Part shown: positions 1-6,794 of the stretch, piece by piece
How positions within the stretch are numbered: the stretch's first letter is position 1
Layout of the letters: each line of letters begins with the position of its first letter
Assembly (NCBI GenBank): GCA_902611415.1
Contig: CACLZM010000002.1
Location: 1-64,000 of the forward strand
DNA length: 64,000 nt
Direction: 5' to 3'
Origin: an uncultured Alphaproteobacteria bacterium
GTDB taxonomy: Bacteria; Pseudomonadota; Alphaproteobacteria; HIMB59
The notes under the pieces: model-generated
What the model was told of the DNA's origin: nothing
Seen by the model: only the letters and a program-made list of their open reading frames with translations
Databases searched by the model: none
Position numbers and translations under genes: made by a program

Positions 1-347
1 AACAAGCTTTACTTGATCAAAGTTTAATTGTGGGTATGGGAAACATATACGCTAATGAAGCTCTTTTTCATTCAAAGTTAAATCCTCAAAGGCTAACTTA
101 CACTCTTAAAAAAGCAGAAATATCTCAATTATTAAGCTCTTGTAAATTTGTATTGAAGCTATCTTTAAAAAATGGTGGCTCTTCAATAAATGATTATAAA
201 TCCCCAGATGGAACCCTCGGAAGTTTTCAGAGTTTGTTTAAGGTCTATCAAAAGAAACATGTTATATACAAAAAAAAGACTTATAAAATAAAAAAAATCA
301 TCCAAAATGGGCGTTCGACTTTTTTTTCGCCTGCTTTACAAAAATAA
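1..347 (+). CDS. mutM: Formamidopyrimidine-DNA glycosylase (C-terminal part), zincless-finger form
   Basis: Only the C-terminal part lies in the window; the frame is already open at base 3. Fpg/MutM removes 8-oxoguanine and related oxidised purines in base-excision repair. GMGNIYANEALF in the helix-two-turn-helix region and the late GRSTFF, which carries the DNA-binding arginine, identify the family. Odd: the four zinc-finger cysteines are all gone. Where the family has C-x2-C this protein reads IYKKK, and where it has a second C-x2-C it reads FSPALQ. Loss of zinc with a kept fold is known from NEIL1 and plant FPG. The N-terminal catalytic proline is outside the window. rpsT starts 59 bases downstream. 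The family call is firm; activity without zinc is inference. Confidence 0.9.
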   Translation, partial: QALLDQSLIVGMGNIYANEALFHSKLNPQRLTYTLKKAEISQLLSSCKFVLKLSLKNGGSSINDYKSPDGTLGSFQSLFKVYQKKHVIYKKKTYKIKKIIQNGRSTFFSPALQK

Positions 348-780: not shown

Positions 781-2148
781 GTGGAAGACGAAAAGCATCA
801 AGGTGGCATAGATGTATCTTGGTCTAAGATCACATCTGAATTAAAAAAATCACTTGATAAAGATAGCTTCCAAAACTGGATTAAACCAATATATTTCGAG
901 TCACATATTGATACTTCTCTTACACTTTCAGTCCCAACAAGATTTCTTCGTGATTGGATAATTAAAAATTATGCTTCTGTTATTAAAAAAGCATATATGG
1001 ATCAAGGCCACAGTATCGATAAATTAGCTATACTCGTCAAAGAGAATAATGATCGTATTATTCCTGGCACTGAAGTCATTTATGAAGACAAAGATGATGA
1101 TGAAGACACATATTATGATGATATTTCTGCACCATTAGACCCAAAATTTACATTTGATAATTTTATTGTAGGTAAACCCAACGAGTTAGCATACGCCGCA
1201 GCACAACGTGTGGCACAATCAGAAGTTGTAAGCTTTAATCCATTATTTTTGTATGGAGGTGTTGGATTAGGAAAAACACATTTAATGCATGCAGTTGCCT
1301 GGAATATAAAAAAAAGAAATCCAAAAAAAAATGTTGTCTATTTAACAGCTGAAAAATTTATGTATCAGTTTATTAAAGCCTTAAGATTTAAAAATATCAT
1401 GAGTTTTAAAGAGCAATTTAGATCAGTAGATGTTCTAATGATTGATGATGTGCAATTTATTATTGGTAAAGATAACACACAGGAAGAATTTTTTCATACG
1501 TTTAATACTTTAATTGACAAAAAAAGACAAATAATTATTTCAGCTGATAAATCCCCCGCTGATCTTGATGGATTAGAGGACAGATTAAAGTCAAGATTAG
1601 GCTGGGGTTTAGTAGCGGATATACATCCCTTAACTTATGAATTGCGATTAGGTATCCTACAGGCTAAAGCTGAACAAAAATCTCTAAATCTAAAACAAGA
1701 AGTAATGGAATTTTTAGCAAATAAAATTACTAATAATGTAAGAGAAATGGAAGGCGCCTTGAATAGATTAGCAGTTCATACTTCAATTCAGGACTCAGAA
1801 ATATCTGTTGACCTCGTAAAAGATGTTTTAAAAGATTTACTGAGGACAAATTCAAGAAAAATTACAATTGATGAAATACAAAAGAAAGTTGTTGAGCATT
1901 ACAATATAAAACTTTCAGATATGCATTCACCGAGAAGATCAAGGTCTGTGGCGCGTCCAAGACAAGTTGCAATGTATTTAGCAAAGTCAATCACAACAAG
2001 ATCTTTACCTGAAATTGGTAGAAAATTTGGTGGAAGAGATCATACCACTGTTATTCACGCTATTAAAACAATCGAAGAAATCATGGTAAATGATCCTAAT
2101 TTAGCAGAAGATATTGAACTCTTGACTAGAATATTGCAAACTTCTTAA
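781..2148 (+). CDS. dnaA: Chromosomal replication initiator protein DnaA
   Basis: AAA+ ATPase of 455 residues that binds DnaA boxes and opens the origin. Domain I starts with WSKITSELKKSL. Walker A GGVGLGKTHL is near residue 159, Walker B VLMIDDVQF near 218, and the domain IV DNA-binding signature GGRDHTTVIHA near 417. The acidic linker (DKDDDEDTYYDD) corresponds to domain II. The start is GTG at 781, supported by the strong GAGGAAGGA ribosome-binding site about ten bases upstream. It is followed with no gap by dnaN, forming a dnaA-dnaN-recF-gyrB run. Confidence 0.98.
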   Translation: MEDEKHQGGIDVSWSKITSELKKSLDKDSFQNWIKPIYFESHIDTSLTLSVPTRFLRDWIIKNYASVIKKAYMDQGHSIDKLAILVKENNDRIIPGTEVIYEDKDDDEDTYYDDISAPLDPKFTFDNFIVGKPNELAYAAAQRVAQSEVVSFNPLFLYGGVGLGKTHLMHAVAWNIKKRNPKKNVVYLTAEKFMYQFIKALRFKNIMSFKEQFRSVDVLMIDDVQFIIGKDNTQEEFFHTFNTLIDKKRQIIISADKSPADLDGLEDRLKSRLGWGLVADIHPLTYELRLGILQAKAEQKSLNLKQEVMEFLANKITNNVREMEGALNRLAVHTSIQDSEISVDLVKDVLKDLLRTNSRKITIDEIQKKVVEHYNIKLSDMHSPRRSRSVARPRQVAMYLAKSITTRSLPEIGRKFGGRDHTTVIHAIKTIEEIMVNDPNLAEDIELLTRILQTS

Positions 2149-3258
2149 ATGGATTTCAGAGTAAGTCGAGAGGCTTTTTTAAGAGTCTTAACTCACGTTA
2201 GCTCAATTGTTGATAGTAGATCTACAATTCCAATTCTGTCTAATATTTATATAAAATGTGATAATAATCAAATAGAAATTAGATCAACAGATATGGATAT
2301 TTCTATCAGAGAATTTGTATCAACCGACTCTTCAAAAAGTGGAGAAGCAACAGTAAATTCAAGAATTTTAACTGATATAATTCGTAAGACAAAAAAAAAC
2401 TCTATTGTAAAATGTAAATTAGAGGGAAATAGATTGATCATAAATTCTGATAACTCAGTATTTGAGTTAAATGCATTAACCGCAGATGAATTCCCAAAAT
2501 TTGTTCCTTTAGAACAAACAAACTCATTCGAACTAACAATCTCTCAGATTAAAAGGCTTTTTCATAAAACTAAATTTGCTATCTCTGCTGAAGAGACTAG
2601 ATACTACCTAAATGGTATTTACTTCCATACTGTTTCTAACGGACCAAAGTCAACTTTAAGGTGCGTCGCTACCGACGGCCACAGACTTGCAAAAACAGAG
2701 CTAGATTTAACAAATAGCATAAATATACCGGGAATTATACTCCCAAGAAAACTTATTCTTCAATTAGACCGCATTTTAGGTGATTTTGAGGGTAAGGTTA
2801 GAATTACATGTTCTGATACTCAAGTGAGTCTAGAAGCAGATAATTTTATTATAATAAGCAAACTAATAGATGGAACATTTCCAGATTATGAAAAAGTTAT
2901 ACCTGTATCCAATGACAAATTATTACAAGTTGAGGCGGAGCCTTTTTTTAATGCAATTGATAGGGTCTCAACTGTTAATCAAGATAAAACACCAACAGTT
3001 AAGTTACAATTTGAAAATAATAGTATTAAGATAATGGCCACGAGCACTGACAGTAATAAAGGCGATGAAGAGGTCGCAGCAAATTACGCTGCCGATGGTC
3101 TTGAAATACTTTTTAATTCAAAATATGTATTGGATTTACAAGATGTTGTCGAAGGAGATACTTTGATTTTAGAGTTACTAAATCAATCATCACCAGTAAT
3201 AGTAAAGGACCCTAAAGATACAACAAGTTTATTTATTTTAATGCCTATGAGAGTTTAA
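2149..3258 (+). CDS. dnaN: DNA polymerase III beta subunit (sliding clamp)
   Basis: 369-residue ring-forming clamp that tethers DNA polymerase III to DNA. The start MDFRVSREAFLRVLTHV, the motif RCVATDGHRLAKTE and the end FILMPMRV are typical of bacterial beta clamps, and the length is the usual one. Its ATG follows the dnaA stop codon directly, so translation is probably coupled. recF follows, again with no gap. Confidence 0.98.
   Translation: MDFRVSREAFLRVLTHVSSIVDSRSTIPILSNIYIKCDNNQIEIRSTDMDISIREFVSTDSSKSGEATVNSRILTDIIRKTKKNSIVKCKLEGNRLIINSDNSVFELNALTADEFPKFVPLEQTNSFELTISQIKRLFHKTKFAISAEETRYYLNGIYFHTVSNGPKSTLRCVATDGHRLAKTELDLTNSINIPGIILPRKLILQLDRILGDFEGKVRITCSDTQVSLEADNFIIISKLIDGTFPDYEKVIPVSNDKLLQVEAEPFFNAIDRVSTVNQDKTPTVKLQFENNSIKIMATSTDSNKGDEEVAANYAADGLEILFNSKYVLDLQDVVEGDTLILELLNQSSPVIVKDPKDTTSLFILMPMRV

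Positions 3259-6794
<3,536 letters not shown>

Follow-up and report, generated by a model that had tools for sequence, protein, structure and literature searches.

The mutM fragment at the start of the window

The window, a stretch of 64,000 nucleotides from the beginning of a contig of an uncultured HIMB59-type alphaproteobacterium, opens with the 3′ part of a mutM (fpg) gene, followed by rpsT and dnaA (named by reading the translations). The 5′ part of mutM is lost at the contig start: the frame encodes the last 114 residues and the stop codon, corresponding to residues 159–272 of a 272-aa protein, and residues 1–158 lie outside the window. Residues are numbered here as in the 272-aa relatives, and the zinc-cysteine positions were placed by gapless alignment to the E. 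coli and other Fpg proteins and to cysteine-bearing relatives. For P2, E3, K58, M76, R111 and F113 the evidence comes from relatives; the closest one is 99% identical over the shared part. The fragment comprises the following features.

3..347, + strand: 3′ part of mutM/fpg (open frame, Pfam/NCBIfam matches, full-length relatives)
6..194, + strand: H2TH domain (profile positions 29–91 of 93)
42–44, + strand: Asn172, catalytic/DNA-binding (invariant in both alignments)
174..221, + strand: 8-oxoguanine capping loop (G216–G231) with the glycine at each end retained (alignments)
243..344, + strand: zincless finger, V239 to K272 (sequence and model strands of the relative L083)
267..269, + strand: zinc cysteine 1 (C1) position, Tyr247 (alignment)
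276..278, + strand: zinc cysteine 2 (C2) position, Lys250 (alignment)
312..314, + strand: beta-hairpin Arg262, which acts as the phosphate clamp in this family (invariant in both alignments)
327..329, + strand: zinc cysteine 3 (C3) position, Ser267 (alignment)
336..338, + strand: zinc cysteine 4 (C4) position, Leu270 (alignment)

The preliminary description of this DNA had claimed that all four zinc-cysteine positions are replaced while the VYQKK and GRSTFF motifs and the H2TH region persist. Alignment confirms this reading: the positions are occupied by Y247, K250, S267 and L270, the motifs VYQKK, IYKKK, GRSTFF and FSPALQ are all present, and the H2TH domain of the window protein scores above the Pfam cut-off (E 1.4e-18 and 9.5e-19). 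The Pfam model of the Fpg C-terminal region reaches 15 bits, short of its cut-off of 27. The NCBIfam Fpg models match with E-values of 9.9e-33 and 9.6e-31, both below their cut-offs owing to the truncation of the protein.

The finger within and outside the HIMB59 order

PMC10734472 describes the HIMB59 order as a pair of families, of which one contains a single genus, with genomes of 1.2–1.7 Mb; the relatives sampled here, one single-genus family and one family of several genera, fit the layout given in that source. The sample amounts to 60 genomes including the window's own, 37 from the same genus and 23 from the sister family. A MutM match was present in 53 of the 60 and in all 17 genomes that are at least 90% complete; the genomes without a match, four of the 37 in the genus and three of the 23 in the sister family, are incomplete. 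Full-length MutM proteins of the order measure 271–272 aa. The genus yielded 33 matches, 31 of which include the finger and two of which, in G007 and G024, stop short of it, the copy in G024 at a contig end. In G007 (L034, approximately 2135–3368) the mutM frame runs into an apparent ilvB end, followed by ilvH- and ilvC-like frames (names by reading); this mutM–ilv junction is probably an assembly join. L034, L035 and L127 contain no finger and were left out of the finger counts.

None of the 31 fingers read in the genus holds the cysteine set, and 29 are devoid of cysteine altogether; one (L031) carries a lone stray cysteine in the loop and one (L033, from G015) keeps C3 only. In the sister family, all 17 fingers read, from 20 matches, lack C1, C2 and C4 and keep C3, and their loop is two residues shorter than that of the genus. 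At position 267 (C3) the sister family and G015 have Cys, and G013 has Ala. The former C1 position (247) is filled by Y, L, F or W across 29 genus rows; the former C4 position (270) is L in 31/31 genus rows and L or I in the 17 sister-family rows. As neither the genus nor the sister family has the cysteine set, the loss is order-wide among these HIMB59-type Alphaproteobacteria, and the consistent absence that the preliminary description looked for in the lineage is borne out. The contrary signs it named, close relatives bearing the cysteines, a frameshift or lost catalytic residues, were not encountered: the relatives have full-length frames and intact catalytic residues, with P2, E3, K58, M76, R111, F113, N172 and R262 invariant in the order sample and in alignment A2. 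Sequencing or assembly error as the source of the altered finger is ruled out, as 30 further same-genus loci agree.

Outside the order, 141 fingers were read from 65 class loci and 76 named loci, a few of them from other classes or with odd labels. At least four finger cysteines are found in 134 and three in six (L060, L101, L105, L106, L137 and L146), L137 and L146 having His at C4; a single finger (L063), with one cysteine left, is zincless. A further 50 fingers, 30 from the same class and 20 from other classes of the phylum, include no zincless case, 48 of them bearing four cysteines or more and two bearing three. The 65 class loci were drawn from 317 genomes with a match and the further 50 from 238, and unread matches could hide more zincless cases. 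L063 (255–1076) represents a separate zincless MutM in G088, a lone 1.3-Mb member of the class. Among 13 relatives read around G088, 12 have four finger cysteines and one has three; since no near relative of L063 was found, a second zinc loss rests on one incomplete genome.

Fingers with three cysteines that have lost the second one were observed at L101, L105, L106, L250 and L303, in sphingomonad-like and other Alphaproteobacteria. C4 is replaced in 33 of the 141 fingers, mostly with an extra upstream cysteine; the 33 rows break down into 24, three, three and two of other forms, plus L063, and a parallel listing with three added genus rows gives 34 non-Cys residues at C4 over 144 rows. A C-x2-C-x-C arrangement upstream, together with C3 and without C4, occurs in 24 of the 141 (L061, L064, L066, L072, L077 and others) and is possibly a rearranged zinc site of many alphaproteobacterial MutM proteins.

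A 91-row tree, built by a quick method without the finger, places the order in one clade (SH-aLRT 91), within which the genus and the sister family are supported at 100 and 92, respectively. The zincless state requires two changes over these 91 rows, the second being L063. The SAR11 rows fall near the HIMB59 order, a grouping that shared composition may cause. Upstream, mutM adjoins ubiE in all four full-length loci that were checked, as it does in the sister-family locus L036; with this constant neighbour, and with rpsT and dnaA in the window, the gene looks like the lineage's own, vertically inherited copy and not an import.

Fold and nearest known enzymes

An AlphaFold2 model was obtained for the relative L083 (AG-895-J15) from 39 aligned homologues. 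It has a mean pLDDT of 90.8, with blocks of residues 241–270 at 95–96, and contains four short finger strands at residues 244–247, 250–253, 255–259 and 262–266. As the underlying alignment is dominated by cysteine-bearing rows (36 of 39), it may impose the family fold, and the model alone is no proof of a stable metal-free finger. The best solved matches are zinc-bearing Fpg/MutM structures (Z approximately 31, rmsd 1.9 over 258 residues); the zincless MvNei1 and Arabidopsis FPG give Z approximately 25–26.

The protein combines the traits of two groups. The catalytic P2, E3 and K58 of MutM/Fpg are found in the relatives and the H2TH domain in the window, and the intercalation residues M76, R111 and F113 accompany the capping-loop glycines. 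The Cys4 zinc finger of Fpg is lacking in every finger read in the order; in its place, sequence and model strands reveal the hairpin typical of zincless-finger Fpg/Nei proteins, which carries the Arg without metal ligands. The window MutM thus belongs to MutM/Fpg by descent and fold, and is not a zinc-finger Fpg.

With bacterial Fpg/MutM (BaFpg1, such as the enzymes of Lactococcus lactis and E. coli) the protein has in common its sequence family and length, the catalytic residues, the glycines of the capping loop, the Arg loop and the gene neighbourhood. The difference lies in the finger: BaFpg1 has a Cys4 zinc finger, with four cysteines reported as perfectly conserved in 62 BaFpg1 sequences (PMC3188539), whereas the genus MutM is without the zinc cysteines. 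The preliminary description had cited zinc loss with retention of the hairpin from NEIL1 and plant FPG, and the literature agrees, as zincless fingers are described for plant and fungal FPG, NEIL1 and Mimivirus enzymes (PMC3188539, PMC9266487). Human NEIL1 likewise presents its Arg on a hairpin devoid of metal ligands (PMC9266487), but belongs to another subfamily with a different sequence, and no NEIL1 chain appeared among the solved-structure sequence matches listed by phmmer. The plant and fungal FPG (PFNei; Arabidopsis 3twk, 3twl and 3twm) share the zincless finger and match the order MutM at E 3.7e-17 over residues 1–217; however, the alignment does not extend into the capping loop or the finger, and the specificity loop is given as 12 residues in plant and fungal FPG versus 23 in bacterial Fpg (PMC3188539). 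Mimivirus Nei1 (3a42, 3a45) is similar in its zincless finger (Z approximately 26), but is a viral NEIL1-like protein with a sequence match of only E approximately 6e-7 over residues 1–215. Bacterial Fpg is placed above plant FPG by phmmer; the 91-row tree contains neither plant nor NEIL1 rows. Published cases of a finger retained without its zinc cysteines come chiefly from plant, fungal, animal and giant-virus relatives. A zincless bacterial MutM was not found in the titles and abstract openings of a literature collection with few subscription journals, which is weak evidence of novelty.

Possible reasons for the loss of the zinc cysteines and its probable compensation

Could the finger simply be decaying in a MutM on its way to becoming a pseudogene? 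Seven of the 60 genomes are without a match and one copy, in G007, is cut short. The relaxed constraint suggested in the preliminary description is nevertheless contradicted by the finger itself, for which pN/pS is 0.13 (residues 239–272) against 0.21 for the rest of the protein, over non-independent pairs of 26 genus coding sequences. The median dN/dS in the genus is 0.11 (range 0.07–0.21; 151 pairs with dS between 0.1 and 1), 29 genus rows agree at 19 of the 34 positions of the finger, all catalytic residues are kept and no genome at 90% completeness or above lacks a match. The lower pN/pS of the finger indicates replacement rather than decay: a drift towards a pseudogene is highly improbable, and a pseudogene or frameshift proper is ruled out by the full-length relatives and the constraint. 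A change into a NEIL1- or plant-FPG-like glycosylase that no longer excises 8-oxoguanine is also quite unlikely. The zincless Fpg/Nei members known are of the NEIL1 and plant-FPG kind (PMC3188539, PMC9266487). These are not known to excise 8-oxoguanine; against such a change stand the retained capping-loop glycines and gapless bacterial loop length, the retention of M76, R111 and F113, and a Z score of 31 to Fpg/MutM versus 25–26 to AtFPG and MvNei1.

Two further explanations appeal to the environment. One ascribes the loss of the finger to the scarcity of zinc in surface seawater, and the order is indeed a streamlined marine one (PMC10734472). Some hints lean towards zinc sparing. Nine order rows of L36 are without the zinc ligand set and ten of L31 without cysteine; these counts concern order rows, with the SAR11 rows and the L36 of G015 outside them, and so provide no contrast with SAR11. 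In Alphaproteobacteria, L31 and L36 usually lack cysteine. The first DnaJ zinc motif is also remodelled in the genus: in four of four rows (L330–L333, from G017, G030, G004 and G015) the first CxxCxGxG has become C-x3-H and about eight residues are deleted, and the motifs are canonical in the sister-family and SAR11 rows. MutM, however, is a low-copy protein, so that the zinc saved would be tiny. Furthermore, at least four finger cysteines are kept in 13 of 13 SAR11-type rows from a similar habitat, and other zinc sites persist in the order: the IleRS C4 site in 10/10 genomes, the ClpX zinc domain in 9/10 (G038 being the exception) and three or four of the zinc motifs of DnaJ in 9/10 (the window's incomplete genome has no match). 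As SAR11 keeps its cysteines and the order its IleRS and ClpX zinc sites, zinc thrift appears neither needed nor sufficient on present evidence; it is ruled out as sole cause, the saving proposed in the preliminary description falls short as a sufficient one, and zinc scarcity is an unlikely reason for the loss. The gene znuA is reported in half of the SAR11 genomes studied in PMC4771312. AT pressure as sole cause is excluded too: the GC content of the window is 0.33, compared with 0.228–0.264 in nine cysteine-keeping SAR11 loci. The other environmental explanation, that an enzyme repairing oxidative damage benefited from the loss of thiolates prone to oxidation and zinc release, is doubtful. 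In its favour, 2-thioxanthine attacks the finger thiolates of Fpg, expels zinc and inhibits the enzyme, and zincless NEIL1 is resistant (PMC4176347); sunlit surface water would, moreover, be oxidising. Yet SAR11 keeps the cysteines in the same setting, and one reactive cysteine is kept in the sister family.

The protein is very probably a working bifunctional glycosylase/AP lyase whose Cys4 finger was replaced by a metal-free hairpin that still presents Arg262, a reading that draws on sequence comparison. The replacement of the zinc finger by a beta-hairpin would have occurred once, in the ancestor of the order, and the new hairpin would still offer Arg262 to the phosphates beside the flipped-out base. 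The order MutM would bind no zinc, and hydrophobic packing at the former C1 and C4 positions (Y/L/F/W247 and L270) may take over the role of the metal in holding the hairpin. The simplest account of the replacement would be that the finger drifted into an intermediate state that was tolerated and was later compensated, because C4 has already been replaced in 33 of the 141 fingers outside the order; these suggest a route for the finger through a tolerant stage.

With regard to substrate, 8-oxoguanine would remain the main one. The capping loop aligns without a gap to that of E. coli Fpg and both end glycines are kept; glycines of the G216/G231 type are described as the ends of the 8-oxoG recognition loop (PMC3188539). 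The conserved glycines and gapless loop lead to the prediction that the order MutM is metal-free and retains 8-oxoG excision, unlike the eukaryotic zincless enzymes. MutY, the GO partner, is likely to be present in the order: it is matched in nine of ten order genomes at E 1e-52 or better, none above the curated cut-off, and more weakly, at 4.4e-16, in G038.

What would be new here is a zincless finger in a bacterial MutM, a family in which, in the sequences covered by PMC3188539, the four cysteines had been called perfectly conserved. Searches with Fpg zinc-domain models will overlook this finger, as the 15 bits against a 27-bit cut-off illustrate. It is probable that the whole order repairs 8-oxoG with a metal-free, thiol-free MutM, that zinc loss is separable from loss of 8-oxoG specificity, and that the sister family, with its relic cysteine and shorter loop, is an intermediate. 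If so, the lineage would offer a staged series, from Cys4 (SAR11 and other Alphaproteobacteria) through the C3 relic of the sister family to none in the genus, in which to follow the replacement of a structural zinc in an enzyme that survives it. It would also supply a naturally occurring MutM that is redox-inert and retains an active site of the bacterial type, and a clean test of the zinc finger's role in lesion specificity.
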